A stretch of DNA of 64,000 bases from Acidobacteriota bacterium (GCA_016213785.1 JACQZQ010000020.1:1-64000), one strand, 5' to 3'; shown: positions 1 through 59,052, counted from the stretch's first letter. Notes: generated by a model from the letters alone, not told the origin. Program-made: numbers and translations.

Positions 1-72
1 AAAAGCTAGCTAAGTGATTGAAAATAAATAAGTCACGAACAATAAAAACTAATAAAAAACGTACTACTATCG

Positions 73-118
73 AACTCATAATCTGTTGGTTCCAGGTTCG
101 AATCCTGGAGGGCCCACC
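73..118 (+). tRNA. 3' half of a tRNA (CAT anticodon), probable integration scar
   Basis: From about position 75 the sequence has the 3' half of a tRNA: a seven-base anticodon loop with CAT at 77-79, a 3' anticodon strand (82-86), a five-base variable loop (87-91), a perfect T-arm (stem 92-96 with 104-108, loop TTCGAAT) and a 3' acceptor strand 109-115 followed by ACC. The 5' anticodon strand, D-arm and 5' acceptor strand are missing: bases 70-74 do not pair with 82-86, and no GGGCCC-type acceptor lies upstream. The break falls at the anticodon loop, a known crossover site for tRNA-targeting integrases. It is therefore not a functional tRNA. Confidence 0.75.
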
Positions 119-288
119 TTCAATTACCTAATAAAATCAATAATTTGTAATTTATTTTCTTTACGTTAATTTGCTATTTATTAAAATTGACAGTAACCAA
201 TAAGAAATTTATTTTCTTTGCTTCTTAATTACAAACAGAGAAACTAGTTATCCCCTTTGACTTTAAGCCATATTTATCAGCAGCATAG

Positions 289-438
289 TTTCCAACAAAA
301 GAAAAAGACCTCCAGTTTCGTTCTAAAATCCAACTTGCAGAGAGCTTAGTACAAAATGCCGTAGCTTGTGAAAAAGCTGGCGATACAAAGATTAGGTATA
401 TTGTCGGTGATAAGATTTACGCAGCTAATCACCTTTAG
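289..438 (+). pseudogene. short gene remnant without start codon
   Basis: A 49-codon open stretch lies between two in-frame stops (286-288 and 436-438) and has no start codon. Its C-terminal part reads like real protein (RYIVGDKIYAANHL at the end) rather than random AT-rich translation. No family was recognised. It fits debris beside the tRNA scar. Confidence 0.3.
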
Positions 439-448
439 GGATAAGTTA

Positions 449-561
449 GGACGGGTATGTTTCAATAAAGTTGATAATGTGCTGTGATTAAGTTAGAAAT
501 GCTTTGCCTGCTTTACAAAAGAGGATAATAAACCCATCAACAATTCTTCTACAACACGACC
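449..561. repeat. MITE-like dispersed repeat, copy 1 (degenerate)
   Basis: About 110 bp that matches 51221-51329 along its length. Shared blocks include AATAAAG near the left end, TTAGAAATGC, GGATAATAAA and the right end AACACGACC (553-561). The left terminal repeat is damaged here (GGACGGGTATGTT), while the other copy has GGTCGTGTT. It encodes no protein, so a non-autonomous element or a REP-like repeat is the likely nature. Confidence 0.55.
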
Positions 562-744
562 TGCGGGGGGTGGTAATCCAAAAGGGGATTTGACGAGAAA
601 GCAAAACTGAGCCATTGCCTTTAACTTTGCAGGGTCAGGTTGCAAAAGAATTGACGGCTTAAAAGCCAAGAAGAAAATTTAAGGTAGTTAATAAATAAAC
701 CAATAATTAATCTATAATTTTCTCATAGCTTGTTTATATGTTTG
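562..744. other. intergenic, nothing recognised
   Basis: No supported gene, RNA or regulatory structure was seen between the dispersed repeat and the terminator of the leftward gene that follows. Confidence 0.4.
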
Positions 745-10248: not shown

Positions 10249-11049
10249 TTAATTTTTTTGCCAAAATAGCCCTTTTCTTATGTAATTACTAGTGCTGTTT
10301 TCTCTAAAATCCTTACCGTTCCAACATCTAACCATAATAGAAATAGAGTTTTGTTCAAGAGTTATTAAATTATAAGTGTTAGTTTCACCTCTGTAGCGAG
10401 TTGAAACGGCTGTGCCTGCTTGAGCAACAATAATAGATTTAAGGATTGGGTGGTGGGTTCGAGCATCATCTTGATAACCTACGTGTAAATGACCAGCTAG
10501 GATTAAATCTACTCCTACAGACTCTAAAGTTTGTAAAGCTAAAGGAGCACGTTTAATAACAGTTTGGAGTCTTTTTCCTGGTTGAGGAAGAAATTGGTGA
10601 TGAGTTACTATAATCTTAAAAACGCTCTCAGGGATTTCTTGTAGTTTTTGTGATAGGTTTAAGATTTGTTTATTAGAAAGAGAGCCGTTTTTCCAAGTAA
10701 GAGAACGGGCTGTATTTGCTCCTAGAACAGCTATTTCACTGTCTTGATAAGTAGGCGCTAGGTCGTCTGTAATATATTGACAATAGCGTTCCAAAGGACG
10801 TGATAGTCTATGTAGTAAATTATAAAGTGGAATATCATGGTTTCCTGGAACTACTAAATAACCTACTGGTAAACGTTCAAGAAAAGCTCGGGCTGCAATA
10901 AATTCTGATGTTCGTGCTCGTTGAGTTAGATCTCCGCTAACTACGATTAAAGAAAGAGGAAAGCTTGATAAATCAGCAAGTAAAGCTTCTACTACTTTTT
11001 TATCTTCATGTCCAAAATGTAAATCAGAAATATGTGCAATGACTCTCAT
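10249..11049 (-). CDS. calcineurin-like metallophosphoesterase (CpdA/Icc-like)
   Basis: The 266-residue product has the full set of metallophosphoesterase motifs in order: ISDLHFG at the N-terminus, VVSGDLTQ near 40, VPGNHD near 70, VTHHQF near 148 and LAGHLHVGY near 185. These supply the two-metal site. Overall it resembles the cyclic-nucleotide phosphodiesterase/Icc group, but the substrate cannot be read from sequence. It is the last gene of the leftward operon, 16 bp after the lipid-kinase stop, and probably relies on coupled translation because no Shine-Dalgarno is visible. Confidence 0.9.
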   Translation of the reverse strand: MRVIAHISDLHFGHEDKKVVEALLADLSSFPLSLIVVSGDLTQRARTSEFIAARAFLERLPVGYLVVPGNHDIPLYNLLHRLSRPLERYCQYITDDLAPTYQDSEIAVLGANTARSLTWKNGSLSNKQILNLSQKLQEIPESVFKIIVTHHQFLPQPGKRLQTVIKRAPLALQTLESVGVDLILAGHLHVGYQDDARTHHPILKSIIVAQAGTAVSTRYRGETNTYNLITLEQNSISIMVRCWNGKDFRENSTSNYIRKGLFWQKN

Positions 11050-11065
11050 AAAACTAAATAGTTAA

Positions 11066-11965
11066 CTAATTAGGTTTTGGCACAACTACTTTAAGAGCAC
11101 TAGGAATAATACGATAATGTAGAGGAGGTTTTAAGCGTTGTACTTCACCATCTAGGGCAACTCTAAGCCGTCTTTTTTTTGTTTCAATCCAAATTTCTTT
11201 AGCTGATTCAATTCTAAAATCTTTAGCCTGATTTAATCGCCCAAGTAAAGCTTGTAGGGATAATTGTATCACTCCAAACCTACCAACACGATTTGCTAAA
11301 TATAAACATAACTGGCCTTTATCTAAGTATTCACGAGTTCCAAGATTAAGTAAATTCATCTGGTAATGATTATTAGCAACAAAAACAAAAGGAGAACTAG
11401 ATTTAATAATTTTCTCGTCTATTTCTAAAGAAACTTGAAGCATTGGAAATCTAAATATTGTAGAAAAAACAGCTAAAAGCATTGCTGACCATTTTCCTAA
11501 GCCAAGTTTTTCTCTTTGAGCATCGCGCTTTTGTACTAATTGAGGATATAGCCCTATAGAAGAATTATTAATAAAAGTTAAATTGTTTACCTGTGCAATA
11601 TCGCAGCTAGTAACATGGTTTTGACTTATTGTTTTTATAGCTTCTTCTAAATTTTGCGGTATTTTAAGGTCTTTAGCAAAATGGTTAAGTGTTCCTAAAG
11701 GCAAGACTCCAAGCGCTATATTTTTATTTACTAAAGTTGATGCAACTGTGCTGATTGTCCCATCACCGCCGCCTGCAACTACTATATCAGCATTACTAAT
11801 TGAAGCTTGTTGTGCACTTTCTAAAATCTTATGACCTTTTACTAGTAGAATTTCAGCATCTATATTGGCTGAGCGAAATAGCTCAGCTAAATAGTTTATT
11901 TGATTGTCTTTAGGCAGTGTAGCAAATGATCCACCACCACTATTAATAATAACAATTGCTTTCAT
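11066..11965 (-). CDS. diacylglycerol kinase-family lipid kinase
   Basis: The 299-residue product carries a DAGK catalytic domain: the N-terminal IINSGGGS loop, the nucleotide motif VVAGGGDGTISTVAS near 65, and LPLGTLNHFAKDL near 95. The C-terminal half has the YegS/DgkB-type beta-sandwich ending (VALDGE). The start is placed at the ATG whose A is the last base of the upstream gene's TGA (TGATG). A longer reading from an upstream TTG is less likely. It phosphorylates a membrane or soluble lipid at the cytoplasmic face; which lipid is unknown. Coupling with the ChaN-like gene suggests equal-amount synthesis. Confidence 0.9.
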   Translation of the reverse strand: MKAIVIINSGGGSFATLPKDNQINYLAELFRSANIDAEILLVKGHKILESAQQASISNADIVVAGGGDGTISTVASTLVNKNIALGVLPLGTLNHFAKDLKIPQNLEEAIKTISQNHVTSCDIAQVNNLTFINNSSIGLYPQLVQKRDAQREKLGLGKWSAMLLAVFSTIFRFPMLQVSLEIDEKIIKSSSPFVFVANNHYQMNLLNLGTREYLDKGQLCLYLANRVGRFGVIQLSLQALLGRLNQAKDFRIESAKEIWIETKKRRLRVALDGEVQRLKPPLHYRIIPSALKVVVPKPN

Positions 11966-13989
11966 CACCAAATAAAATCTTTCGCAAAAGAACGTACAGA
12001 TTTATCAGAAAGAATATGAAATGAACGAATTTTTTGTAGCATTACAGGGGAAAGCTGCTTAAGAGAAATATAAAGAATACGTTTTCCATATCTGCCAGCT
12101 AGGACTTGAAAAAACGGCCTAGGCGGTTTAGGTGCAACATAGACTACAAATTTTTCTAAACTATAATCAAGGGCTGCAAATAAAAGTCTTTCAGCATGAT
12201 TTGTAGCTACTCTATAAACAGGATCATGAAAGACATCATAAAGCCTTCCTGGAGGCATAGACATCATAAAACCACCATAAATAGCTTTACGAATGCCTGA
12301 AGCAACATGTCTTTCATCTGGACTAGTTGCGTAGAAAGCCATATCTGATTCTTGCTCATGTTCGCCTAGCCAAGTCATTGTATAAGGATAATTACTTGTA
12401 TCTTCATCAAAAATTACCACTACAGAATCAACAGAACCTTTAATTAGTGCTGCTTCTTGAACATAAAGTTTTCCTGTGTGCCAGTTACGTATAGTTTCTT
12501 TCAGGTCAATACCATCAAGTAAGGATGTTTCAAAAGGCCTAACCCGTTTACGTTCTTCGCTAAGAATATGCTTTCCTTTGCTACGTAAATAATTACCATA
12601 GCCTTCTAAAATAATATCTTCAGGGGGATAAGAGCAAATGCTATTAGGGTCAAAACGTAGGTTTTTATCTTTTAGAGATTGTTTTTGTTTATCTTTGCGA
12701 GTTAAAAACCTTGGCACACCAGCACGGGGTTTAAGAGGTGTATAAGGATTCATACGTACTTTATTAATCAATGGAAAAATATCTTCAGCACGTAGTTCAA
12801 TAGTCTCTAATTCGCTATGACCTTCTTGTGAAGCGTAAAAAGTTCCTAATTCCCACATTCGATAACAAAAGTGAGAATTAATTGAGCCTCGACCAGCAAT
12901 TAAAAGCTCATAAAAATCTGGTAGTAAAGATTTTTTTACACTTGCATATTTACGAGCAAAAGAAATCAGCAAAAACATTTGTTGGGGGCTTAGGCGTTCT
13001 CCTATTTCTTGCTCATAAAAAGCCCTACACCAAAGTAAATAGCGGATTATTATTTCATTATGATCTAAATTAGTTACTCGATTTGCAACATCAATATGTG
13101 CACGAGGAGCTAGTTCTGGTAATTTTTCTTGAGCTTTACCTGAAATTACCTTAAAAACTGTTTTTGATGAATCTGCTGTATCAGAGGCTAAATTATCAAA
13201 AGTATCAAAGGCATTATTTATTGTAGTTGTTATAGGGTCTATAGAAAATGTCTTAGAATTATCTTCTAGTTTACTTATAGAAATATTTCTTTGTAGTTCA
13301 TAAACTGAGCTAAAGAAAGGGAATTGCCCCATTATTTCACCAAGCGAAAGCGGGCTAAGATGATAGAGTTTAGCTAAAGGGCGGTTTTCTTCTGGTCGAG
13401 GGATAGTCTTAGCTTTTAATTTTTCTTTTAAGCCAAATAGATGTTTTAATCCACATAAAACAAGTATTGGTCGTTTGGGATTTAGCTTTCCTGTCCAACT
13501 AAGTTTATGCTCTAGCTCTTTTAAGTGAAAGGCCATGGCTTGTTCTCTTTTTTCATCTTCTGGTAAATGAAGAAATGCTTTAGTTAAAGCCATTTCACAA
13601 TATTTTTTATGCCCAAGATACTTAAGTGCATAAGTGTCTGGCATTGGTTCATAAATTTCTGGATAATTAGTTATGCTTAAGTCAATACAACGAACTTCTA
13701 AATGATTTTGACGAGCAAGGCGGACAGCTTCTATAAAAGGGTCTACAGGCTCAAAACGAATAAAATTTTTAGTTGTATCTCCATAAAGAAGTATAGAAAT
13801 ACGAGGAAGACGATCAACTGCTTTTATTACTAAATCTTGAAGGGTAAAAGGGTATTCAACAGCTATTGCACAAGGGTTTAGCTCTTCAAAAGCTAAGCGA
13901 GCCGCTAAAGTAAATTCATAGGAATGATGAATTACTGGTAGCAGAATAAAGTGACCGCATTTTTCTAAATAAAGCTCTCTGTTTCTCAT
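11965..13989 (-). CDS. MoxR-associated protein with ChaN/TraB-like N-terminal domain
   Basis: The 674-residue product is not fully recognised. The N-terminus has a strand ending in a His pair (ILLPVIHHSYEFT), then AIAVEYP, and near residue 180 ILVLCGLKHLFG. This order of His-bearing strands resembles the ChaN/TraB superfamily and the DUF5682-type proteins that are often encoded beside MoxR ATPases. The middle is helical and the C-terminal 250 residues contain a well-ordered alpha/beta region (VVIFDEDTSNYPYTMTWLG, then NHAERLLFAALDYSLEKFVVYV). There is no signal peptide. It overlaps the MoxR gene by one base (TGATG) and the lipid kinase gene the same way, so the three are translationally coupled. 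Confidence 0.75.
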   Translation of the reverse strand: MRNRELYLEKCGHFILLPVIHHSYEFTLAARLAFEELNPCAIAVEYPFTLQDLVIKAVDRLPRISILLYGDTTKNFIRFEPVDPFIEAVRLARQNHLEVRCIDLSITNYPEIYEPMPDTYALKYLGHKKYCEMALTKAFLHLPEDEKREQAMAFHLKELEHKLSWTGKLNPKRPILVLCGLKHLFGLKEKLKAKTIPRPEENRPLAKLYHLSPLSLGEIMGQFPFFSSVYELQRNISISKLEDNSKTFSIDPITTTINNAFDTFDNLASDTADSSKTVFKVISGKAQEKLPELAPRAHIDVANRVTNLDHNEIIIRYLLWCRAFYEQEIGERLSPQQMFLLISFARKYASVKKSLLPDFYELLIAGRGSINSHFCYRMWELGTFYASQEGHSELETIELRAEDIFPLINKVRMNPYTPLKPRAGVPRFLTRKDKQKQSLKDKNLRFDPNSICSYPPEDIILEGYGNYLRSKGKHILSEERKRVRPFETSLLDGIDLKETIRNWHTGKLYVQEAALIKGSVDSVVVIFDEDTSNYPYTMTWLGEHEQESDMAFYATSPDERHVASGIRKAIYGGFMMSMPPGRLYDVFHDPVYRVATNHAERLLFAALDYSLEKFVVYVAPKPPRPFFQVLAGRYGKRILYISLKQLSPVMLQKIRSFHILSDKSVRSFAKDFIW

Positions 13990-14840
13990 CAGTCAGCATA
14001 GCGTAAGGCTGTTTCACCTAAGACTTTAACCATAGCTTCATACATTAACTTACGGTAATCGGTTGGCCCGTAACTAAGGCGTTTAGCTACATAACGAGCA
14101 ATATTAATACCATCTCTTACTGTATAAGGTTCATCAGCTAAATGACAGCGAGATAAGAAATTAGCTACATAGGTCAAAATTTTATCATCAACAAAAGGTA
14201 AGTTTTCTCTTAAGATAGCTAATTCTTCATCAAGTTCTGGAAAATCTAGATAAATTTGTGGTTGGAGTCGAGAGTTTATATATTCAGGAATTTCAAAAGT
14301 ACTAGCATCATCATTCATTGTTGCAACAATACGAAAATCAGGATGAGCTTTAACTTTTACTCCTGCAACAATTGATTCAATGTAGCGGCGAGTATCAAGT
14401 AGTGGTGCAAGAGAAGCCCAAGATTTTTCTGACATTCTATTGCCTTCATCAAGAATTGCAATTGCTCCAGTAATCATTGCTGTAACAATTGAGCTTGCAA
14501 CATATTGAATTTTTCCATTTTCTGCTACTACTGGGGTAATAAGTAAATCTTCTGGGCGTGTATCCATTGTAGCTTGGAAAATATAGACATCTTTATTTAG
14601 TTCTTTTGCTGCGCCATAAGCTAATGTAGTTTTCCCTACGCCAGGTTTTCCTATTAACCTAGGTGAGAGTGCAATATCTCGTTCATCAATAAGGTGCCAA
14701 CATGCGTGTAGTTGTAAGATTAGTTCTCTTTGGCCTATCCAGCGCAAAGGAAGTTCATCGGGGTGAGCTAGATGGATTGAAACTCCGTCTATTTGGACAC
14801 TACGACGCTCTTTAGAAGTCTTGTCCAAATTAGATTTCAT
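13989..14840 (-). CDS. MoxR-family AAA+ ATPase
   Basis: The 283-residue AAA+ protein has Walker A GKPGVGKTT near residue 60, Walker B AIAILDEGNRM near 130, and sensor-1 IVATMND near 175. A MoxR-type C-terminal helical lid follows (YTVRDGINIARYVAKRL). It is about the usual MoxR length. The start is moved to the ATG preceded by GGAG nine bases upstream; a TTG 15 bases further upstream would place that Shine-Dalgarno inside the gene. MoxR ATPases usually work with a VWA protein as chaperone pairs, but no VWA gene is in this operon. The stop codon overlaps the next start. Confidence 0.92.
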   Translation of the reverse strand: MKSNLDKTSKERRSVQIDGVSIHLAHPDELPLRWIGQRELILQLHACWHLIDERDIALSPRLIGKPGVGKTTLAYGAAKELNKDVYIFQATMDTRPEDLLITPVVAENGKIQYVASSIVTAMITGAIAILDEGNRMSEKSWASLAPLLDTRRYIESIVAGVKVKAHPDFRIVATMNDDASTFEIPEYINSRLQPQIYLDFPELDEELAILRENLPFVDDKILTYVANFLSRCHLADEPYTVRDGINIARYVAKRLSYGPTDYRKLMYEAMVKVLGETALRYAD

Positions 14841-14896
14841 GCTTAATTTCTCCAAATCAAATCAGTTTATAATAGTTAGAAGCTTTAGTAATTTTT

Positions 14897-16933
14897 TTAG
14901 GGTGCATCTTCAAGTTTTGAGTCTTTATCATTTTTCTTACGGTCTTCAGGGGTTGATTCTGCAAGGACACGAAATCCTACTTTTGGATCCTTAAAGTCAA
15001 CAGGACTCCAGCTACGAAAAGTTGTTGTAATGGCTTCTTTAGTTGATTTGAAATGACCGCCTCGAATAATCTTATTTCCCTTAAATTTATCTTCTACAGG
15101 AGCTTTTGAATTAGGGTATATTGAGTAGTCTGAGTATGTCCATTCTGCAACATTGCCAGCCATTGCAAAAATTCGAAAAGGGCTTTGATCTTGTTCTAAA
15201 GAAGCGCTAGTTACGGGTACAGCTTCACCTTTAACTTGAGAATCACCTGAAACAGTACGATTAGCTGCCCAAGTTTTTCCCCAAGGATAAGGTCTTTCAT
15301 CTGTTCCACGAGCAGCATATTCCCATTCTGCTTCATTAGGTAAGCGAGCTTTGCGGCCACCTAACTTTCCTGATAACCAGCTACAATAGGCATTTGCATC
15401 AATCCAAGTAACATTTACTACTGGTAGGTCGTCTGTTCCTGGAGGAAAACTCCCATCTTGCCAATCAGGAGGAGGAGCATATTTAGTCTCATCAATAAAT
15501 TTTTTATATTCTTTATTAGAGACTTCATAATTGCCTAACCAAAAATCATCTACTGCTATTGGGTTTACAGGTGTTTGATTTAACTCATCTTTAGATGCTG
15601 TTTCAGGGCTTTTTCCCATCTTAAAAGTATTACCCTTAATCCAAGTCATACGCTCAGGACTATCACTTGGAGGCGAACCATTTTTACTTCCACTACCTTT
15701 AATATAGAGATACCAATAAGCGCCTGCACCTCCCCCACCCAATAAAACTACTATAACTATTGCAACTGTAATTAATACCCCATAACCTTTTTTTTCTTTA
15801 GTGGACTCTACATAAGAAGGTTGCGGTTGATTAAGCTTAAGTGAGTGGCTTGTTTGGCGAGGAGTAGGTATAGGTCTAGGAGTATTAGTACTTGATATTA
15901 GGTTGCTGCTAGTAATAGGATTTTGGCCTGAGTTAGTAGATGCTGCTAGGCCGCTAGCAGAACTAGTAGTTGCTGAACGCCCACTAGCAGCCAAAGCCTT
16001 TTCTAGTTCATCAGAGAGTTCATCGGCTGTTTGTTGACGGTCATTAGGTCTTTTAGCCATAGCCTTCATTACAACAGTTTCAATTTCAAGAGGGATTTTA
16101 TTATTTACTTCTCTTACGGGACGGGGTAGGGCGTGGATATGCTTTAATGCAAGTGCCATAGATGATGCTGCTGTAAAGGGTAGAGCACCTGTGAGTAGCT
16201 GATAAAGACAAACGCCTAAACTATAAATATCAGCCCGTTTATCTAACTCTATACCTTGGGCTTGCTCAGGAGACATATATTGAGGTGTTCCTACTACAAG
16301 ACCAATTTCTGTTAAAGCTTGAGCATTTTTATCACCAGAAGAAACTTTAGCAATAGAAAAATCAAGTACTTTTACTTGTTCTGTAGGTTGGTTATAGTTA
16401 AGAACTATTACATTATCAGGTTTTAAGTCTCGGTGAATAACATCTTTAAGATGTGCTGCACTAACTGCTGCACATATTTGCTTAAATATTTTTACAGTTT
16501 TTTCAACAGGGATTATTTTTTCAGTTTCTAAAATTTTTTGCAAACTAGTACCATCTAGTAATTCCATCACAATAAAAACCGTTTGATCTTCTGTAACACC
16601 AAAATCCATTACTTGAATAGCATTTGGGTGATTAACTGCAAGTGCTGCACGGGCTTCACGGCGAAACCTTTCTACTGCTTTTGCGTCAGAGACCATACTT
16701 GCATGCAAAATCTTTATTGCCACATTTGTTTCCATCTTAGTATGTCTGCCACGATATACATTACCCATACCTCCTGCACCTATTCGGCTAACAATAAGGT
16801 ATTTTCCTTCTAATACTTTGCCAATAAAAGGGTCTGATTGATCTGGAGCTTCAATCAAAGGTGTGCCATCAGCGGGGCAAAAAGTACTATTATCAGGATA
16901 TGTGGCACTACATACTGGGCATTGTTTGCTCAT
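14897..16933 (-). CDS. membrane Ser/Thr protein kinase fused to FGE-sulfatase domain
   Basis: Domains in order: an N-terminal zinc ribbon (CPVC and CPADG, residues 5-25); a Hanks-type kinase, about 45-310 (glycine loop GAGGMGNVY, VAIKIL, HRDLKPDN, GTPQYMSPEQ); a Ser/Thr/Pro-rich linker; one membrane helix near 382-405; and an extracytoplasmic formylglycine-generating-enzyme-like domain, about 430-665 (WIKGNTFKMG, LPNEAEWEYAARG, GNVAEWTYSDY, RGGHF). The activation segment reads DFS rather than DFG. FGE-like domains fused to kinases usually serve as ligand-binding modules. AGGAG lies five bases before the ATG. It is the first gene of the operon, about 40 bp from moxR. Confidence 0.92.
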   Translation of the reverse strand: MSKQCPVCSATYPDNSTFCPADGTPLIEAPDQSDPFIGKVLEGKYLIVSRIGAGGMGNVYRGRHTKMETNVAIKILHASMVSDAKAVERFRREARAALAVNHPNAIQVMDFGVTEDQTVFIVMELLDGTSLQKILETEKIIPVEKTVKIFKQICAAVSAAHLKDVIHRDLKPDNVIVLNYNQPTEQVKVLDFSIAKVSSGDKNAQALTEIGLVVGTPQYMSPEQAQGIELDKRADIYSLGVCLYQLLTGALPFTAASSMALALKHIHALPRPVREVNNKIPLEIETVVMKAMAKRPNDRQQTADELSDELEKALAASGRSATTSSASGLAASTNSGQNPITSSNLISSTNTPRPIPTPRQTSHSLKLNQPQPSYVESTKEKKGYGVLITVAIVIVVLLGGGGAGAYWYLYIKGSGSKNGSPPSDSPERMTWIKGNTFKMGKSPETASKDELNQTPVNPIAVDDFWLGNYEVSNKEYKKFIDETKYAPPPDWQDGSFPPGTDDLPVVNVTWIDANAYCSWLSGKLGGRKARLPNEAEWEYAARGTDERPYPWGKTWAANRTVSGDSQVKGEAVPVTSASLEQDQSPFRIFAMAGNVAEWTYSDYSIYPNSKAPVEDKFKGNKIIRGGHFKSTKEAITTTFRSWSPVDFKDPKVGFRVLAESTPEDRKKNDKDSKLEDAP

Positions 16934-17463: not shown

Positions 17464-20145
17464 TTATATACCAAAAACAAATTTTTCACGAGCTACAATA
17501 ACATCACGAAGTCTAAAGTTTAGATCGCCAAAAGTATTATCATCAGCAATCCAATCCGACATTCTGCTATTTCCTAGCGAGAGATTATAGGTTTTACCAT
17601 CATCTCTTCTAAATAAAACATTATCTGAGCTTTTTTCATGGGTTGCTGTCCAGTTGCGACCATTAGCAACAAAAGTTCTAGTAAAGGCATTACTAACAGG
17701 GGCATCTTTTAAGTTAGTTCCACTAGCCTTAGGATTTCTTAAATCATCTAAAAACTGACGGAAGAAACTATGGGTTACATCTGCGGTTTGACGATCTAGG
17801 TCTGGGTCAATATTTTGATCATATTCAAATCCAAAAACTGTATTTTGTTTTTCAAAATCTTTTAAGTTCCAAGTTGGGACAGCTAAAATAAAAGTTCCTG
17901 TTTTTGGTCGTATTGAGTCATGGTAGTCGCGTTGACCTGTAGCTGCTTTAGCTTGTAAATCTAAGCCAATCTTGGCATTACCAATAGGATTACCAGAGAT
18001 TAAATTTCCTGGTGGGAAAGGTTGAGGTTTACCAGGATCTTCAGGATTACGATCTCCTAAACCATTTGGGCTTTGCAGTGATACAGCAACTTGAGGAAGA
18101 TTATTCTTATGTGAATTTACTGGAAGGTTATCAACTACACCGCCATCACATAAACGCATGGTACGGCCTGTTGCAGGATCAACCATTTCAATTGGGTCAA
18201 ATGCCGCAGGAATAGCTGTGGAAGCTACTACAGCCATTGCTACAGGAGTATTAGGAGTATTTTCTTTACTAAAAATAAAAGTACGGTCTTCTAGTCGAGT
18301 CATATCATTTGTTGCTTGACTATCTGCAAGTTTAGTTGCTGTTAAATAAAGTGGCATTGGTAAATCTGCAAAAGTAACAGGTCTATCAGTAATACCAGTA
18401 ATTTCTCTTAATTTTTGATCCATATAACGATAAAGCTCACGACCTTCCATAAGTCCTGGGCCTAAAAGAGTAGCGTCAAAGAATTTCTTAATAGCAGGGT
18501 CTTTTGCTACATCGTCTACTTTACGGGGGTCAATACCTGCTGCTACAAGTGATGCTGCAATTGCTCCAGCACTTGTACCACTTACACTAGCTGGAACAAC
18601 TCCTATGTTATACATTTCTTCAAATACAGGAGCATAGCGTTTACCTTTTCCACCACCGCCTTCTAAAGAGAGTTGTACTGCAATGGGTTTACCATCTTGC
18701 ACGGGCATACCTAATTTAGCACGATTTTCTGCAACAGTTTTTTCATAATCAGCCATAGATGTTACTGTTTTAGTCTTTCCATCTTTATCAATTAAAGTCA
18801 TTGGCTTAGAGAGCGCTAAAGATGAAACATTTGCTTTATCACTAAAAAGTAATTTATTAAGATCAGCAGGTTTATTAGGATCTTCTACTGTTCTTGCAAC
18901 TGATGAAGCAAGTCCACTTGTTGTAGAAGTTGGAAAATGTTTAGCAGTAACTTTTCCGTTTTCAAGTTCACCACCAGCAAAATTAGCCGCTACCCACATT
19001 GTTCCAGGCTTAGGAAAAGTCTCTGTAGTATAACCATAAACGCTCTTTAATTTAGCTGCTGCAAATGCATCACCATTTTTTGCGGCGGCGGCTAAATCAC
19101 GCATTTCTTTGGTATTGCCTACTAATTTATCTAGGTCAATAGCTTTACCTACAGGGTTTTTATCTGATTTGAAAATGTTTTTGATGCCAATACCAATTGC
19201 TTTAAGAATTGGTGCAATATATTCAGTATTATAGTCACCAATTTTTTCTTTAGTGTTATAAACAAACTTAAAGGCTTTATCTGCTAGATCACTTAAACCA
19301 TCTTTAGCTTTATTAACAAGCCCGCCAATAGCACTTTTAGCTTTGTCAATTAACCCACCAAAGCTAAAAGAATCAATACCTTCAGCCATGTTTTTAGCTT
19401 TATTAGCTACCGGTTCAACAGCTTGTTGTACGGATTTAGCATAGCTGCTAGCTTGAGTAGAGATTTTTCTAGAGGCTACTGTCATATCTTCAGTTGCTTG
19501 GAGCGCTCTAGGTAGAGCCATTCCTTTGCCACTTGCTATAGCACTAGTAGCTTGTTCTAATCGGCTCATTCCTTTGTTAACATCTTTTAAGTTTTGGTTA
19601 ATATCAAAGCCAAAATCATTTGCTGTATTTCTAAGTAAACTAGTTAGATCTTCTAACTGATTAAGTAATTGTTCTAGATTATTAGCTAAATCTGGTGAAT
19701 GTGGAGCTAAATCTGTACGGCTTTGAGAAAGGCTTTTTTGAGCATTTTGAGCATGGTGGAGAAAATTACTTGCATCTGTTCTAGTTGCATTTAATGCTTT
19801 GTTAATTTGTGTTTGGAACTTATTGTTAGCAATTGAAAGTTTATTTACACCGCTTAATAAATTGTTAATTGCAGGTTGGAATTCTCTTCCAATACTACGA
19901 GTAATTACTTCACTGCTACCTAACTTAGCCTCTAGTTGAGATCTTATAGATTTACTACTTAATGTAGTGCGAGCACGAAGAGATTTTTCTTGTTGATTAC
20001 TAATTGAAGGCGGTGCTGAGGATTGAATATTTTGTTGCTCTTTTTGTTGCTCTTCTACCGCAGGCTGTTTTGCCCCTTTAATATCTTGTTGAAAATCGCA
20101 TAGGATTTGTTGGTCTTGATTATTATTTCCTACTTTCATTGCCAT
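17464..20145 (-). CDS. patatin-like phospholipase with long helical N-terminal region
   Basis: The 893-residue product has a C-terminal patatin domain from about residue 485. The oxyanion loop is SLEGGGGKGKRY near 495, the nucleophile elbow SGTSAGAI is near 524, and the catalytic Asp motif LCDGGVVDN is near 667. Residues 1-330 are Ala/Asn/Gln/Ser/Lys-rich and predicted coiled-coil, with repeated KAKS and DKA segments. There is no signal peptide. The start is set at an ATG preceded by AAGGAG with seven-base spacing; an ATG 129 bases upstream lacks this. The size and helical arm are unusual for housekeeping patatins and would suit an effector or membrane-targeted lipase. No immunity-like gene sits directly beside it. 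Confidence 0.88.
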   Translation of the reverse strand: MAMKVGNNNQDQQILCDFQQDIKGAKQPAVEEQQKEQQNIQSSAPPSISNQQEKSLRARTTLSSKSIRSQLEAKLGSSEVITRSIGREFQPAINNLLSGVNKLSIANNKFQTQINKALNATRTDASNFLHHAQNAQKSLSQSRTDLAPHSPDLANNLEQLLNQLEDLTSLLRNTANDFGFDINQNLKDVNKGMSRLEQATSAIASGKGMALPRALQATEDMTVASRKISTQASSYAKSVQQAVEPVANKAKNMAEGIDSFSFGGLIDKAKSAIGGLVNKAKDGLSDLADKAFKFVYNTKEKIGDYNTEYIAPILKAIGIGIKNIFKSDKNPVGKAIDLDKLVGNTKEMRDLAAAAKNGDAFAAAKLKSVYGYTTETFPKPGTMWVAANFAGGELENGKVTAKHFPTSTTSGLASSVARTVEDPNKPADLNKLLFSDKANVSSLALSKPMTLIDKDGKTKTVTSMADYEKTVAENRAKLGMPVQDGKPIAVQLSLEGGGGKGKRYAPVFEEMYNIGVVPASVSGTSAGAIAASLVAAGIDPRKVDDVAKDPAIKKFFDATLLGPGLMEGRELYRYMDQKLREITGITDRPVTFADLPMPLYLTATKLADSQATNDMTRLEDRTFIFSKENTPNTPVAMAVVASTAIPAAFDPIEMVDPATGRTMRLCDGGVVDNLPVNSHKNNLPQVAVSLQSPNGLGDRNPEDPGKPQPFPPGNLISGNPIGNAKIGLDLQAKAATGQRDYHDSIRPKTGTFILAVPTWNLKDFEKQNTVFGFEYDQNIDPDLDRQTADVTHSFFRQFLDDLRNPKASGTNLKDAPVSNAFTRTFVANGRNWTATHEKSSDNVLFRRDDGKTYNLSLGNSRMSDWIADDNTFGDLNFRLRDVIVAREKFVFGI

Positions 20146-20381
20146 TGATGCTCTCCTTAAAGTTACAGATAATAGTAAATTGTATTTGGTATTAATTAAA
20201 TAAAGAATGAGTGAATAGCCATTCAGCCGCTCTAATATAGTATCGGGAAAGGAGTGAAAAAGTTGCCAAAACATTTATTTTTTCTTTAGCAAATATCCTA
20301 AATTTTATCTTAAAATTTATATATTTTTTAATAAATGCTTCTTAAGTAAATATTTAATAGGTATCTAGAAACTAATACTAA

Positions 20382-24077: not shown

Positions 24078-27000
24078 ATGAGTAATGCAAAAACTAAAGA
24101 CTTAGTAGGTCAAGTCATTGATAATAAATATGAATTAATCTCTCAGCTTGGCATAGGCGGTATGGCAGTTGTCTATAATGCTCGTCGCTTACGTATTAAT
24201 GATGAAGTTGCAGTTAAAATTCTTCATCCAGAAATAACTCTTGATTCTGTAAGTCAAATGCGTTTTGAACGTGAAGCACAAGCAGCAGCACGAATTAAAC
24301 ACCCTAATATAGTCACTATTCATGACTTTGGTACTACTACAGATGGACTTACCTATTTAGTAATGGAATTATTACAAGGGCCTACTCTAGGGGAAGAACT
24401 AAGTGATTATAATGGTTTAACTATAGAGAGAACTTTAAGTATTTTATTACCTGTTTGCCAAGCAATAGGAGTTGCACACCAAGAAGGTATTATTCATCGT
24501 GACTTGAAACCTTCAAATATTTTACTTCATAAACTTAAAGATGGTACAGAACTAGTTAAAGTTGTTGATTTTGGTATTGTTAAAGTTCGTAGCGGGGAAG
24601 CTTTAACCCAAGTTAACAATATCTTAGGTACTCCTCATTATATGTCGCCCGAACAGTGTTATAGCCGAGAACTAGATGCTAGGTCAGATATTTATTCGCT
24701 AGCCATAATAGGTTATGAAATGCTAGTAGGACGGCTCCCCTTTAATGAACCATCTATTGTTGAAATACTTCAAGCCCAGGTAGAAAAAGCTCCTCCGCCT
24801 CTTCGTCAATATCGCCCAGATATTCCTACTGGTCTAGAGGCAGCTATTTTGCGAGCATTAAGTAAAAAAGCTGAAGACCGACCATCAAGCGCCCAAGAAT
24901 TTGCTCAAGAATTATTCTCTGGTGCAGGGTTTAACCCTCAATCAACCCTACCTGGTTCAGGTGGACATATAAGGGCTATTAAAGCAAGTGAAATTTCTTC
25001 TACTCTTATCCCTAAAAGTAACGCTTCTAGTGGGTCAAATAACCCTATAAAAGAGACTATTAACCGTCGATTAGTGAAGTTAAGTCCAGATTTTGATAGC
25101 TTTGTAGGTAGAAAACGGGAATTAGAAAGATTAGTAGCCGAATATCAATCATTAACTACTAATAAAGCACGCCCTGTAATTGTGCTTGGTGAAAAAGGTT
25201 TTGGTATCTCTCGCTTAGGTGAAAAATTTTATAGATGGTTAAAAAGTAATAATGTAGCGGTTTTATTAACTAAATTTTATGAACCTGCTAGCCGTGCTCA
25301 ATTGCCCTTTCAGCCCTGGCTAGATTTACTAAGAAGATCTCTTGGTATTCGCAGACAGGATTTAGCCCAAGAGTCAGATTTAATTAATATTACACTTGAA
25401 CGCACTGGAATTAAACTCCCTAAATGTTTATTTGAAAGCCGTAGTTTAGACGAAGCAGAAAAATGGTCTATCTTTGAAGCTATTGAGTCAATTATCATTC
25501 ATACAGCAAATGATCAGCGTGGGATATTAATTTTTGATAATTTAGAATATGCAAATGTTAATTTAGAACTTCTTTCTTATTTAATCCGCAATTTACATAC
25601 TAGAACCTTATTTGTATTTTTAGGCAATACTGAAAAAGTAACTCAAAAAGGCCATCCTTGCCAGGAATGGTTAGCCTCGCTTTCTCGCTCTGGAGGCTAT
25701 GAAACCATTAAATTACAGCCTCTTACTCAAGCAGAGCTTCGTACAATGCTTGATGGAATTTTTGGGAAATTAGATATAGCAGAACGTGATATTGAAAAAA
25801 TCTGGCAAGTTTCTTTAGGAAACCCATATTATGTAGTAGAAATTATCCGGTATTTAATTAATGAAGGTAAAATAACATTAGAAAGCAATTGGGCATGTGA
25901 AAATATTGATGAATTTATCCTTCCAGAAAGTCTTCAGCAACTTGCTGAAATAAAATTATCTAAAGTTGATGAACCTATAATAGAGTTACTTAGGCAAGCA
26001 AGTGTAATTGGAAATGAATTTTCCTTTGATATTTTAGAAAAAGTTACAGGTCTTAATGAAGATGAGCTTGCCAATATTTTAGAAAAGGCTGTAAAAGCTA
26101 GGTTATTACAAGAAAGCGTTAACCGAGAAGAAATTTATAATTTTTCTGACCCTGCCATTCATTTTGTACTCTATGACGCTATCCCTAGACGGCGAAAGCG
26201 TAAACTCCACTTACAAGTTGCTCAAGCAATTGAGACAATTGTAGGAAATAGTCAACAAAAATTACTTCGCTATAGTGCTGCACTACTGCATCATTTTTAT
26301 GAAGCAGGGGAAACAGCAAAAACTTTCTACTATGGTCGTGCTGCTTCTGAAGCCGCTTTTTCACGTTTAGATATTGCTGAGGCAGAAAAATATTATTTAT
26401 GGGCCTTAAATGCAGCTAAAGAAATGCAAGAAGAAGGAAACACTCCTAATACTACTGAGCAGGCACAACTATATTTAGGGTCTGCAAGAATTGCACTACA
26501 TTTAGGACATATAGAAAAGGCTCAAGAAAATTTAACTTTTGCACAAGATATTGCTGAAGCAGAAAAAAATCTAGCCGTTATTAGCCGAACACAACTTATA
26601 AAAAGCCAAATAGAATATTCCTGTAGTAATTTTGAACTAGCCTTAAAAGCAGTTGAAGCAGGTTTAAGCGCAGCACAATCTATTAAAGATCCTAAAACTG
26701 AAAGTAGATTACTTCTAATCCTATCTCAAGTTTCTACTGCATTAGGACAAACCGAGAAAACTCTTAAATCCTTAGAAAACAATTTAGCACTTTCACGTCA
26801 AAATAAAGACCCTTTTACAGAAAATCAAATATTATCTCTTTTAGGGAGTACTTTTAGCCAAATAGGTAACTTTAAGCAAGGACTCTCTCTTATAGAAGAA
26901 GGATTAAAAATAGCCCGAAATAATAAAGACCGTCTTGGAGAATTAAAAGCTTTACGTCGTTTAGGAAATCTCTATAAACAGACTAAGCAACTAGAACTCG

Positions 27001-27620
27001 CTCTAGAGACTTATGATTGTGGCCTAGAGCTTGCACGCTCTCTAGAGGCAAAACTTGAAGAAGGATTATTTGAAAATGGACGAGGTGATATTTATCGTCA
27101 ACTTGGTGAAATAGATTTAGCTCGTGAATGCTATCAAAAACTACTCTCCATTGCTCGTTTAGTAAGTAACTCTAGTAATGAAGCTTTAGCTAATCATAAA
27201 CTTGCTCTAGTCGCTTTAGAACTTGGAGTTTATAGCGATTCAGTACGTAAGCTTAAAGTGGCTCTAGAACAACATACTAAGTTAGGAGAACTTCGACTTG
27301 TTGCCCAAGCTTACTATTTTTTAGGCTATGCTTATGAACAGCTTGGACAACTCCAAACAGCCCAAGATAATTATCAGTTAGCTATTGATTATTGTGAGCG
27401 GATTAATCACCCTACTTATCAATGGCAAGCCCATTATGGACTTGGAAATACTTTTTCAATGTTTGGCTTATATGACCAAGCCTTAGCTCAACTAAATGAT
27501 GCTAAAGAAATTATTAACCGTCTTTGTAAAACCTTACCTGATAATGCAAGCGAAGAAGATTTTATGAAAGATAAACTAAAAGTCTTTGCTTTAATAGAAG
27601 ATATTAAGCAACATTTTTAG
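24078..27620 (+). CDS. Ser/Thr protein kinase-ATPase-TPR signalling protein
   Basis: The 1180-residue protein has three parts. A canonical kinase spans about 15-285: Gly loop GIGGMAVVY, Lys in AVKIL at 47, HRDLKPSN at 140, DFG at 164, MSPEQ. An AAA-16/STAND-like ATPase spans about 340-600, and tetratricopeptide repeats about 750-1170. In the ATPase the P-loop reads GEKGFGIS at 371-378, where the invariant Lys is Ile; the Walker B is ILIFDNLEY near 485. ATP hydrolysis may be lost. Such kinase-STAND-TPR proteins act as cytoplasmic signal integrators, with TPRs binding partners. No membrane segment was seen. The substrate is unknown. Confidence 0.9.
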   Translation: MSNAKTKDLVGQVIDNKYELISQLGIGGMAVVYNARRLRINDEVAVKILHPEITLDSVSQMRFEREAQAAARIKHPNIVTIHDFGTTTDGLTYLVMELLQGPTLGEELSDYNGLTIERTLSILLPVCQAIGVAHQEGIIHRDLKPSNILLHKLKDGTELVKVVDFGIVKVRSGEALTQVNNILGTPHYMSPEQCYSRELDARSDIYSLAIIGYEMLVGRLPFNEPSIVEILQAQVEKAPPPLRQYRPDIPTGLEAAILRALSKKAEDRPSSAQEFAQELFSGAGFNPQSTLPGSGGHIRAIKASEISSTLIPKSNASSGSNNPIKETINRRLVKLSPDFDSFVGRKRELERLVAEYQSLTTNKARPVIVLGEKGFGISRLGEKFYRWLKSNNVAVLLTKFYEPASRAQLPFQPWLDLLRRSLGIRRQDLAQESDLINITLERTGIKLPKCLFESRSLDEAEKWSIFEAIESIIIHTANDQRGILIFDNLEYANVNLELLSYLIRNLHTRTLFVFLGNTEKVTQKGHPCQEWLASLSRSGGYETIKLQPLTQAELRTMLDGIFGKLDIAERDIEKIWQVSLGNPYYVVEIIRYLINEGKITLESNWACENIDEFILPESLQQLAEIKLSKVDEPIIELLRQASVIGNEFSFDILEKVTGLNEDELANILEKAVKARLLQESVNREEIYNFSDPAIHFVLYDAIPRRRKRKLHLQVAQAIETIVGNSQQKLLRYSAALLHHFYEAGETAKTFYYGRAASEAAFSRLDIAEAEKYYLWALNAAKEMQEEGNTPNTTEQAQLYLGSARIALHLGHIEKAQENLTFAQDIAEAEKNLAVISRTQLIKSQIEYSCSNFELALKAVEAGLSAAQSIKDPKTESRLLLILSQVSTALGQTEKTLKSLENNLALSRQNKDPFTENQILSLLGSTFSQIGNFKQGLSLIEEGLKIARNNKDRLGELKALRRLGNLYKQTKQLELALETYDCGLELARSLEAKLEEGLFENGRGDIYRQLGEIDLARECYQKLLSIARLVSNSSNEALANHKLALVALELGVYSDSVRKLKVALEQHTKLGELRLVAQAYYFLGYAYEQLGQLQTAQDNYQLAIDYCERINHPTYQWQAHYGLGNTFSMFGLYDQALAQLNDAKEIINRLCKTLPDNASEEDFMKDKLKVFALIEDIKQHF

Positions 27621-38496: not shown

Positions 38497-40536
38497 ATGT
38501 GGCAACAGGTGTGCCAGTCGAAATTTACTAGAGTGCTTATTTTAAGTCTTTTATTTAGCTGGATATTATCTTTACCTCAAGTACCAACATCTACGCCTAA
38601 GGTACAAGCTCAAACCAGTTTAATTTCCGTCTTATTTGATAACACTAAGGCTGAAACTGCGGGTAATGCTGATTGGATAATTGATACAGATCAACCCACT
38701 CCAAGCCCAAGCAATCCAACAACTGAAACAAGTTGGGTAGGGGCTATTTCAGCTTGGGGCGTGGAATTAGTAAAAACAGGAAAATACACTGTTAGCACAT
38801 TACCTAGCAGTGGTCGTATTACTTATGGCGACACTAGCAATGCTCAAGATCTTTCAAAATACAGGATTTTTGTTATTCCTGAGCCTAACATTGCCTTTAC
38901 TGCTGCTGAGAAAACAGCCATCATAAACTTTGTTGATAATGGTGGTGGTCTTTTTATGATTGCTGATCACTTAAATTCTGATCGCAATAACGATGGTATT
39001 GATAGCCCTAGAATATTTAATGATTTAATGAATAATAATTCTCGTAGTGTTAGTAATATTTTTGGTATTCAATATGATCTTAATAACATATCAAATGAAA
39101 ACCCTTCAACGCTTAATATAGAATCTTCTAGTGATCCTATTATTTTTGGTGCTTATGGTACGGTTTCTGGCACAATCCTACGTGCAGGAGCATCAATGAC
39201 AATTAGTACATCAAGTAATCCTAATGTAAGAGGAGTTATATTCCGCAATACATTTTCACGTACTGGTAGTACAGGTGTAGCTTTTGCTCGAAGCCAATTT
39301 GGGCAAGGGCGTATTGCTGCTCATGGTGATAGTTCAGCAATAGATGATGGAACAGGGCAACCAAGTAATAATTTGTTTGATGGCTGGAATGATCCTGCTG
39401 GAACTAATAAGCAGTTATTCCTTAATGCTACTGAGTGGCTAGCTAAAACTACTGTTCAACCTGATTTTACCTTAAATACATCTCCAAGTTCTCAAACAGT
39501 CAATGCTGGTAGTTCTACAAGTTATACTGTAAGCACTGCTGCTCAGGGTGGTTTTTCAGGGATGGTTACATTATCTCTCAGTGGACTGCCTTCAGGCGCT
39601 ACTGGCAGTTTTTCAAGTAATCCAATTGCTGCTGGCTCAAGTACTACTTTAACTGTAAATACTTCAACATCTACAACAGGAACAAGTACTTTAACTATTT
39701 CTGGCAGTAGCAACGGGATAACAAAAACTACAAATGCTTCTCTAACTGTTAGTTCAAATGTAACACCAAATTATTCACTCTCTCTATCTCCTACTAGCAA
39801 GAGTATAAGTCAAGGAAGTTCTGGTACTCTTACTGTGACAACTAATCCAGTAGGAGGTTTTTCTTCGCCCATTACACTTACAGCCTCAAGTTTACCAAGC
39901 GGTGTAACAGCAAGCTTTTCTCCTAATCCAGTTACTCCTGGAAGTTCTAGCACACTAACACTTACCGCTTCAGGCACTGCAACGACAGGAACACTTACAA
40001 TAAATATTAATGGTGTAGCTAGTCCATTAAGCCGCTCTACTCCTCTTTCATTAACAATAACTCCTGGTGTAGTTGAAAGACTAGTTAATGGTGGTTTTGA
40101 GGGAAGTACATCACCTTGGGTTTTAAGCGGCGCAGCTTTCTATACAGCTAGTGGGGCATATCCTCATGGCGGAACAGGATATGTTAATACAGGTAATACT
40201 AATAACAGTACTGGTACTGTCTATCAACAATTTACTATTCCGTCTACGGCAACAACTGCCAATTTAACATTTTGGCTTAATGTTAGTTCTACAGAAACAA
40301 CAACTACAACAGTTTATGATACATTGTATGTTGAAGTTTATAGTTCTTCAGGTAGTCTCTTGCAAACATTAGCTACCTACAGCAATTTAAATAAAAGTGC
40401 TGATGGTGTTTATTCTCAAAAAGGTGGATTTAGCCTACTAAGTTATAAAGGCCAAACCATCCGAATTAGGTTTAGAGGCGTTAATGGCTCAATATCTCCA
40501 ACAATATTTCGCATTGATGATGTTTCTGTTAAATAG
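38497..40536 (+). CDS. secreted multidomain protein with GATase1-like and Ig-like domains
   Basis: The 679-residue secreted protein has a signal peptide ending near KVQAQ (residue 38). Residues 45-310 form an alpha/beta domain (YRIFVIPEPNIAFTAAEK, FVDNGGGLFMIADH) resembling the GATase1-like/DUF4350 group, without an obvious catalytic cysteine. Two homologous Ig-like repeats follow, about 325-425 and 428-520; each contains GGFS, then LSGLPSG or ASSLPSG, then SxNP. The C-terminal 150 residues look like a jelly-roll carbohydrate-binding-type domain (LVNGGFEGSTSPW, ending FRIDDVSVK). AAGGAG lies 12 bases upstream of the ATG. It is probably exported to the surface or medium; substrate unknown. Confidence 0.8.
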   Translation: MWQQVCQSKFTRVLILSLLFSWILSLPQVPTSTPKVQAQTSLISVLFDNTKAETAGNADWIIDTDQPTPSPSNPTTETSWVGAISAWGVELVKTGKYTVSTLPSSGRITYGDTSNAQDLSKYRIFVIPEPNIAFTAAEKTAIINFVDNGGGLFMIADHLNSDRNNDGIDSPRIFNDLMNNNSRSVSNIFGIQYDLNNISNENPSTLNIESSSDPIIFGAYGTVSGTILRAGASMTISTSSNPNVRGVIFRNTFSRTGSTGVAFARSQFGQGRIAAHGDSSAIDDGTGQPSNNLFDGWNDPAGTNKQLFLNATEWLAKTTVQPDFTLNTSPSSQTVNAGSSTSYTVSTAAQGGFSGMVTLSLSGLPSGATGSFSSNPIAAGSSTTLTVNTSTSTTGTSTLTISGSSNGITKTTNASLTVSSNVTPNYSLSLSPTSKSISQGSSGTLTVTTNPVGGFSSPITLTASSLPSGVTASFSPNPVTPGSSSTLTLTASGTATTGTLTININGVASPLSRSTPLSLTITPGVVERLVNGGFEGSTSPWVLSGAAFYTASGAYPHGGTGYVNTGNTNNSTGTVYQQFTIPSTATTANLTFWLNVSSTETTTTTVYDTLYVEVYSSSGSLLQTLATYSNLNKSADGVYSQKGGFSLLSYKGQTIRIRFRGVNGSISPTIFRIDDVSVK

Positions 40537-57021: not shown

Positions 57022-59052
57022 ATGACTACTAAAACTCTTGATCCTTCACGACTAGAATCATTACTTGAATCTACAGAGCTTTTACACTCTTCTCAAGACT
57101 TAAGTGAAATGCTAAGGCATTTGCTACGTACTGTTATGGGCAGATTACTAGTAAGCCGAGGTCTTATTGCTGTTATTACACAAGCAAATATGGAAGTAAT
57201 AATAGTAAAAGGTACATCAAAAATAAGTGCAGGAACAATGTTTTCTCTAGAACAAGCTAAAAACGTTGGAATGAATTTAATTTTTTCTATAGGAGTTAAA
57301 GAAAACCCTATAGGCTATTTAGCCCTAGGTCAACCTGCTAGTGAGAATATCTTAAAAGATGAAGAAGGATTTATTAATTCACTTCTTGGGATTGCAGCAA
57401 GTGTTATTAAAAATGCCCGTGCTCATAGCCAAACTATAAAACTTAATCGTGAATTAGAACAAAAAATTCAAGAACTTAGAGCTATTCTAGATTTTGTACG
57501 AGGTCTTTCTTCTACACTTGATGCTACAGAAATTGCTCAACTACTTGTTTTAACTTTATCTGGTGGTTGGGCAGTAAAAAAATATGCTTTAGCTATCTGG
57601 AGAGAGCCCCAAAAACCACTGCTACGACAAAAAGGTATTAATCTGCCTTCTATTGAAGACTTAAAGCCCTTTCTAAAAAGTATGTCTGAGGCTATTAAAC
57701 TAAAAGAACTACCTGATAGCGAACTAAAAGAAAATTTACTCAAAGAAAATGTAGAAATACTTTTTCCAATACCAATTTTATCAGCAACAAATATTATTAA
57801 TGATGTTAGCTGTGACACAGTAGCAAGCCTATCTGTTGATAGTAATGTAATAGGCGTTTTAGCTTTTGGCTCAAGACCAGGAAAATTAACCTATAGCGAT
57901 TCAGATATAGATTTTGGCGTAGGTGTTGTTGCTCAAGCTGCTATTGCTTTGCAAAACGCTTGGTATTTTCAAGATGCTGTAGAACGCCAAAAAATGGAAG
58001 CCCGCTTCCAAGCTGAACAACGTGCTAACATTGTATTTTCAGCTTTTAGCGATGTTTTAACAGGAGCGGTGCTAGATGGAAAATATCAGCTAAATAGTAA
58101 AATTGGAGCGGGTGGCTTTGGTGTAGTCTATAAAGCAACACACCTTGATCTTGCTCGGACTGTAGCAATAAAAATTTTACGCCCTATTATTGGTAGTAAT
58201 GCTAGAGAACGTTTAGAAAGATTTCGCCAAGAAGGGATTTCTGCTTGTAGAATAAATCATCCTAATGCCGTTTCAATACTCGACTTTGTGATTTCTACTA
58301 ACGGTATAGCTTATCTAGTAATGGAACTCTTAAATGGTTTTTCTTTGGGTGATGAAATAAAAAAACAAGGTAGACTCTCACTTGCTCGCTCAGCAGAAAT
58401 TCTTGCCCCTGTTTGTGATGTTCTAGATCAAGTACACTCTCTAGGTATGGTACATAGGGATATTAAACCTGATAATATTTTTCTTCACCAAACCCCTCAA
58501 GGTGAAATTGTTAAAGTTGTAGATTTTGGCCTAACAAAAATTTTTACTAATGATAGCGAATCTGATAACTCAAATCTTTCTAACGCTGGAGAAGTCTTAG
58601 GTACACCTGCTTATATGTCTCCTGAAAGATTTGGAAGCTTAAGCTATGATGGAAAGACTGATGTATATAGCTTAGGGCTTGTAACTTACGAGATGCTTAC
58701 AGGAGAGCTACCTTTTGTTTTTAATGAGAGAACACCTTATAGAATGGCTATGGTGCATATTCAAGAAAGACCTAGACCATTAAGACAACTTAATAGTGCT
58801 ATTGCTGAAAATATTGAAAAAGTAGTGATGCAAACGCTACGTAAATCACCTAGTAAGCGGCCAACAATCAAAGAGTTTGCCCAAAACTTTATAGAGCTAG
58901 TTAAAAAATTAACTCCAGAAGAAAGTAGTAGGGTGTTTTTTGATGATGGTAAAATTTTTTTAGGGCAAAGTAAGGAAAATTGGCAAGATAGCCGAGATAG
59001 TAAAACAGATACTCTTTCAATAAAAATTACAAAGATAGACTCAATGCCATAA
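57022..59052 (+). CDS. GAF-domain Ser/Thr protein kinase
   Basis: The 676-residue protein has two GAF-like sensory regions (about 10-140 and 165-320; the second includes ASLSVDSNVIGVLAFGSR). A C-terminal Hanks-type kinase spans about 350-635: GAGGFGVVYKA near 362, VAIKIL, HRDIKPDN at 478, DFGLTK near 502 and YMSPERF. All catalytic residues appear intact. No membrane segment is present, so it probably senses a cytoplasmic ligand. It lies 34 bp after the RsbW-like gene, linking partner switching to Ser/Thr phosphorylation. Confidence 0.92.
   Translation: MTTKTLDPSRLESLLESTELLHSSQDLSEMLRHLLRTVMGRLLVSRGLIAVITQANMEVIIVKGTSKISAGTMFSLEQAKNVGMNLIFSIGVKENPIGYLALGQPASENILKDEEGFINSLLGIAASVIKNARAHSQTIKLNRELEQKIQELRAILDFVRGLSSTLDATEIAQLLVLTLSGGWAVKKYALAIWREPQKPLLRQKGINLPSIEDLKPFLKSMSEAIKLKELPDSELKENLLKENVEILFPIPILSATNIINDVSCDTVASLSVDSNVIGVLAFGSRPGKLTYSDSDIDFGVGVVAQAAIALQNAWYFQDAVERQKMEARFQAEQRANIVFSAFSDVLTGAVLDGKYQLNSKIGAGGFGVVYKATHLDLARTVAIKILRPIIGSNARERLERFRQEGISACRINHPNAVSILDFVISTNGIAYLVMELLNGFSLGDEIKKQGRLSLARSAEILAPVCDVLDQVHSLGMVHRDIKPDNIFLHQTPQGEIVKVVDFGLTKIFTNDSESDNSNLSNAGEVLGTPAYMSPERFGSLSYDGKTDVYSLGLVTYEMLTGELPFVFNERTPYRMAMVHIQERPRPLRQLNSAIAENIEKVVMQTLRKSPSKRPTIKEFAQNFIELVKKLTPEESSRVFFDDGKIFLGQSKENWQDSRDSKTDTLSIKITKIDSMP

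Follow-up and report, generated by a model that had tools for sequence, protein, structure and literature searches.

A MoxR-type ATPase and the three-part protein X674 as obligate companions across bacterial phyla

A MoxR-type AAA+ ATPase and an adjoining protein of 674 residues, here called X674, are encoded in a stretch of 64,000 nucleotides (the window) from an Acidobacteriota bacterium (GCA_016213785.1, JACQZQ010000020.1:1-64000). X674 and one MoxR subfamily were shown to be obligate companions across phyla that are gained and lost together, also where their genes are unlinked. MoxR ATPases have been described as typically working with VWA partners (PMC13036017). The pair is a clear exception to this partnership in its near-perfect co-occurrence, its persistence when unlinked and a conserved, unnamed domain that appears to replace VWA. 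MoxR-X674 is thus an undescribed two-gene variant of the MoxR systems, in which the pairing is firm and the mechanism is one that we infer.

Co-occurrence of MoxR and X674

Relatives of X674 were found in Acidobacteriota, in Geobacteraceae and further deltaproteobacteria of Desulfobacterota type, and in Chlamydiota, Nitrospirota, SAR324 and Armatimonadota. The companion MoxR was present in 76 of 77 genomes with X674 and in 0 of 118 without it in a Desulfuromonadia-like class; the corresponding counts were 35/35 against 0/116 in Chlamydiota and 5/6 against 0/141 among Blastocatellia relatives. The sole Blastocatellia genome with X674 and no MoxR is a fragmented metagenome-assembled genome (MAG) in which X674 lies at a contig end. 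Two other Blastocatellia relatives (G003 and G005) hold both genes at unlinked positions. Linkage was counted at the 69 loci where X674 is full-length and the upstream sequence reaches 1 kb or more. MoxR lies within 600 bp upstream and on the same strand at 54 of these and 1-7 kb upstream at five; the other 10 have no linked copy, and for 8 of them MoxR was found elsewhere in the genome.

The companion MoxRs (53-82% identical) are distinct from other MoxRs. The subfamily is sharply set apart, as relatives without X674 in the Blastocatellia set give no match better than 1e-20. The pairwise identity matrices of X674 and MoxR correlate (r = 0.92), and the X674 tree places Chlamydiota in one clade and Blastocatellia in another. 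Neither clustering of the neighbours nor a Pfam search with 106 of their proteins revealed a third conserved neighbour or a VWA; the most frequent family accounts for 4 of the 106. MoxR-X674 fusions in divergent Acidobacteriota were considered and rejected: the long frames turned out to be read-throughs in GC-rich sequence, and MoxR is encoded separately, just upstream of them. One genome of the same class carries the entire pair in two copies (G017, at C40 and C68).

The window MoxR is a member of this distinct subfamily and the obligate partner of X674. Invariant in the family alignment are Walker A (G72/G74/K75/T76), Walker B (D136/E137), sensor 1 (N181), the arginine finger (R196) and an SRL motif. 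The stretch ENGKIQYVASSIVTAMITG may, as judged by eye, correspond to the helix-2 insert of the MoxR clade. The nearest PDB matches of the window MoxR are midasin, NorQ and CbbQ.

Domain anatomy of X674

X674 was shown to consist of three parts: an N-terminal domain of TIKI/TraB/ChaN type, a lid-like helical middle and a strongly conserved C-terminal domain that bears no family name (Table 1). Its AlphaFold model has a mean predicted local distance difference test score (pLDDT) of 85.7, and the protein is apparently cytosolic, no signal peptide being seen by eye. In VIA comparisons, residues 1-197 matched a ciliate complex IV subunit (Z 10.3), HopBA1 (Z 8.3, root-mean-square deviation (rmsd) 3.7, 147 residues) and ChaN (Z 8.0, rmsd 4.2, 149 residues). 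X674 thereby shows the parallel beta-sheet core fold of the TIKI/TraB/ChaN superfamily at moderate Z, supported by weak Pfam TraB matches in 12 of 60 X674 members. TIKI-type hydrolases carry a His-Glu pair and a 2His/2Glu motif (PMC6254334). The putative catalytic residues of X674 fit this 2His/2Glu set and are kept in nearly all members (H21 in 58/60, E45 in 59/60, E149 in 60/60 and H183 in 58/60).

The same N-terminal domain (residues 10-240) is homologous to that of the DUF5682/YehM family (hhalign 98.1%, E 1.1e-13, 288 columns), and equivalents of H21, E45, E149 and H183 are present in six of six DUF5682 proteins compared. The DUF5682/YehM N-domain thereby gains a structural identity as a hydrolase domain of TIKI type whose catalytic set is intact, so that these uncharacterised proteins become testable as enzymes. 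Escherichia coli carries the family, and literature searches on DUF5682 and on MoxR with TraB found nothing. As a whole, X674 scores 10 bits against DUF5682 (PF18934), below the curated cut-off of 26 bits; weak PF18934 matches occur in 34 of 60 members, the best at 1e-7.

Residues 310-383 in the middle resemble the C-terminal lid of BchI (VIA Z 6.4, 68 residues, rmsd 2.2 Å). Since hhalign against the MoxR profile gave no sequence signal for this region, the resemblance is one of structure.

The C-terminal domain is the best conserved part, with a mean pairwise identity of 57% against 41% and 39% for the other two, and contains the invariant run W-x-G-E-H-x-Q-E-S-D-M. Modelled separately it reached a predicted template modelling score (pTM) of 0.81. 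No clear match to it was found in Pfam, NCBIfam or the PDB. Foldseek against the PDB returned nothing with E < 0.001 for either the X674 or the C-domain model, and a viral library returned nothing for the C-domain. Its best VIA matches include many RNase H-like folds (RNase H, Argonaute PIWI, RuvX, integrase), all with Z of at most 3.7, and no canonical RNase H acidic triad is evident in the modelled domain.

The possibility that the C-domain is a cryptic VWA was examined and rejected. Its hhalign probability against VWA_CoxE was 0.3%, DxSxS of the metal ion-dependent adhesion site (MIDAS) motif (DxSxS-T-D) is not among its invariant positions, and neither VWA nor another clear family appears in its VIA list. 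A Pfam scan found no VWA in X674 itself or among its recurrent neighbours. The DUF5682 proteins of related genomes have VWA_CoxE adjacent or fused. In the window's own genome a VWA_CoxE gene comes after a canonical DUF5682 gene (G000:C78:48895-51126), and a genome of the same order (L094) encodes both as one fused protein of 1228 residues. The first-pass annotation of the window had described the 674-residue protein as starting like ChaN, resembling DUF5682, paired with MoxR and lacking the usual VWA partner. These four points were upheld, the DUF5682 likeness for the N-terminus.

The five-gene run and its surroundings

Among named genomes, Blastocatellia MAGs (Acidobacteriota) are the closest relatives of the 6.4-Mb source genome. 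In the window, the pair lies in a run of five closely packed leftward genes.

Table 1. Genes of the five-gene run in window coordinates, and the parts of X674 in residues
Feature	Position	Strand	Matches or residues
Calcineurin-like metallophosphoesterase	10249-11049	-	PF00149, 4.4e-14
YegS/DAGK-type lipid kinase	11066-11971 as open reading frame (ORF), likely 11066-11965	-	PF00781, 8.9e-25
X674, 674 aa	11965-13989	-	no Pfam or NCBIfam cut-off passed
MoxR-type AAA+ ATPase	13989-14855 as ORF, likely 13989-14840	-	AAA_5 PF07728, 7e-20
Ser/Thr protein kinase with C-terminal FGE-sulfatase (formylglycine-generating-enzyme-like) domain	14897-16933	-	PF00069 4.4e-48, PF03781 3.5e-44
X674 N-terminal TIKI/TraB/ChaN-type domain	residues ~10-240		H21, E45, R148/E149, H183
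X674 helical AAA-lid-like middle	residues ~290-420		
X674 C-terminal domain, unassigned to any family	residues ~440-674		

The first-pass annotation had proposed that these genes form one operon with two TGATG overlaps, in which MoxR, X674 and the lipid kinase might be conserved as a trio. The packing and the overlaps hold: the minus-strand ORFs adjoin closely, and TGATG joins MoxR to X674 at 13989 and X674 to the lipid kinase (TGA 11967-11965, ATG 11965-11963). The lipid kinase likely starts at this ATG rather than at TTG 11971. MoxR likely starts at ATG 14840, which is preceded by GGAG and so has a better ribosome-binding site than TTG 14855. A promoter and terminator scan found sites no more numerous than in shuffles and so gave no support to single transcription. 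The run contains no VWA gene.

The trio is not conserved within the genus or the family, whereas the MoxR-X674 duo extends well beyond close relatives. Lack of conservation, which the annotation had named as refuting its reading, thus applies to the trio and not to the duo. At about 80 loci with X674 relatives only MoxR recurs beside X674; the lipid kinase, phosphoesterase and kinase-FGE genes do not, even within the genus. In a same-genus relative X674 is followed by a gene on the opposite strand, and the kinase-FGE gene has no conserved adjacency to X674 among relatives' loci. The five-gene run is a composite in which local gene order has placed the pair beside independent neighbours. The lipid kinase and the metallophosphoesterase are a small conserved unit in the family, because their orthologues sit together at a locus away from X674 in two same-family genomes (G002 and G003), with identities of 51% and 44-45% for the kinase and 51-52% for the phosphoesterase. 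They are possibly a functional pair in their own right. At one of the two loci where they are adjacent (L103 and L104), namely L104, the two genes overlap by one base and immediately follow proA.

Elsewhere in the window, just upstream of the run, a protein of 936 residues with a C-terminal patatin domain is encoded at 17464-20274 (-). It has weak similarity to phospholipases of the cyclic-oligonucleotide-based anti-phage signalling system (CBASS) and of Dot/Icm, and its long N-terminal region is uncharacterised. Two more Ser/Thr protein kinases lie at 24078-27620 and 57022-59052 (+), one of them a kinase-AAA_16-TPR fusion of 1180 residues, so that the window holds at least three kinases, counting the kinase-FGE gene. 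A 679-residue ORF at 38497-40536 (+) has no Pfam match at E 1e-6.

Mechanism, alternatives and known systems

By analogy with known MoxR pairs, we lean, with moderate confidence, towards a two-gene system in which MoxR would be an ATP-driven machine, X674 would replace the VWA co-chaperone and the TIKI domain would serve as effector. MoxR would form a hexameric ring and engage X674, most likely via the nearly invariant C-domain, which would occupy the place of the VWA domain in NorD, CbbO and the DUF5682-VWA fusions. ATP hydrolysis would then pull or twist the flexible linkers in X674, at about 243-284 and 421-432, and this movement would expose the N-terminal 2His/2Glu hydrolase, a protease or esterase by type, to a cytosolic client or drive its action on one. 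The working mode would be that of NorQ-NorD and CbbQ-CbbO, both chaperone/activase pairs, or of VWA-less McrB-McrC, with an enzyme-like effector domain. In the NorQ-NorD pair the partner is rotated in the MoxR ring pore (PMC13036017, PMC9976466). MoxR partners have been described as acting by a finger in the pore and by linker twisting, and McrC is a partner without VWA (PMC13036017). It is by the NorQ-NorD analogy, with McrC as precedent for a non-VWA partner, that MoxR is proposed to engage the C-domain and work the linkers. A bolder and distinctly more tentative proposal is that the pair is a widespread, undescribed ATP-dependent hydrolase machine, in which a MoxR ring might control a TIKI-type protease or esterase via a non-VWA docking/effector domain. 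If true, AAA+ motors would be coupled to hydrolysis in one more way, in addition to those of Lon/Clp-type proteases and McrBC.

Several points weigh against this account. With a VIA Z of 8-10, the N-domain matches score close to what unrelated models reach, and so does the lid match with a Z of 6.4. The co-occurrence counts take in related genomes and are therefore inflated, although the pattern still holds in three separate groups. Two genomes (G240 and G242) carry X674 without a MoxR being found, possibly through genome incompleteness. The pair is unlinked in G003 and G005, and a shared transcript is therefore not universal. Finally, MoxR-X674 binding, ATPase activity and hydrolysis are predictions.

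The pair could instead be a maturation chaperone for metal or heme centres. It would then remodel a metalloprotein so that a cofactor can be inserted, in the manner of NorQD and FeB, and the ChaN-like domain would bind the cofactor rather than act as a catalyst. Most known MoxR pairs mature metalloenzymes (PMC13036017), ChaN, which has a heme-bound structure (2g5g), and the lid of the chelatase BchI are among the structural neighbours of X674, and a ferrochelatase-containing cluster adjoins the pair at five Geobacteraceae loci. That neighbourhood is limited to one Geobacteraceae set, however, with unrelated neighbours in other lineages, and a domain that only bound a cofactor would have no need of the 2His/2Glu set that nearly all members keep. 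The Chlamydiota with the pair are not known to share an obvious metalloenzyme with Geobacter. Maturation is considered rather unlikely. That the pair is an ordinary YehL/YehM (MoxR + DUF5682) system that merely lost its VWA partner is improbable. The N-domain homology and the weak PF18934 matches agree with such an origin, as does the fact that X674 and DUF5682 each adjoin a MoxR. The score against DUF5682 nevertheless falls far below the cut-off, the homology is limited to 288 columns, and the C-terminal third is unrelated yet the most conserved part. The window MoxR is distant from DUF5682-associated MoxRs (25% identity over 194 aa, E 0.01), and a true DUF5682 with VWA is encoded separately in the window's genome.

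Least probable by far is the view of the first-pass annotation that receptor kinase, MoxR/X674, lipid kinase and phosphoesterase act together from one operon in membrane signalling or defence. In its favour are the co-directional packing and the overlaps. The five genes as one system were rejected: their arrangement is kept at none of the roughly 80 other loci, and in G002 and G003 the lipid kinase and phosphoesterase make up a unit of their own. A defence or membrane-signalling role found no support. PADLOC models gave zero matches to X674, as did a search of 50,697 phage records; X674 occurs on one viral contig and on one plasmid (Neochlamydia), there annotated by RefSeq as 'hypothetical protein' beside 'AAA family ATPase'. 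The neighbours of X674 loci vary from lineage to lineage and have housekeeping roles, in contexts that are not defence-island-like.

The proposed MoxR-X674 machine resembles several known systems in part. In the vWA-MoxR ternary conflict systems (VMAP, iSTAND, FtsH, beta-propeller; PMC7159879) a MoxR is likewise coupled to a possible effector. Unlike these, MoxR-X674 has neither a vWA nor the described third components, is not confined to multicellular lineages and has no hypervariable effectors. NorQ-NorD and CbbQ-CbbO share with it a small single-module MoxR AAA+ and a partner of about 70 kDa with an N-domain, a flexible linker and a C-terminal engagement domain; NorD itself comprises an N-domain, a disordered linker and a C-terminal VWA (PMC9976466). 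The C-terminal domain of X674, unlike those of NorD and CbbO, is not a VWA and has no MIDAS, its N-domain has a TIKI-type hydrolase fold, and the pair comes without a target operon. TIKI/TraB/ChaN/EreA hydrolases have in common with X674 the 2His/2Glu set (PMC6254334) and, in its residues 1-197, the core fold. The X674 domain differs from them in being fused to two more domains, tied to an AAA+ ATPase and apparently cytosolic. YehL-YehM-YehP (MoxR, DUF5682, VWA_CoxE) also has a MoxR adjoining a protein with a TIKI-type N-domain and the His/Glu set, and the middle region of YehM/DUF5682 aligns in part with that of X674. The MoxR-X674 pair differs in lacking the rest of DUF5682 and any VWA, and in having another C-domain and a different MoxR subfamily; a YehL-YehM-YehP-type system and the MoxR-X674 pair coexist in the window's genome.

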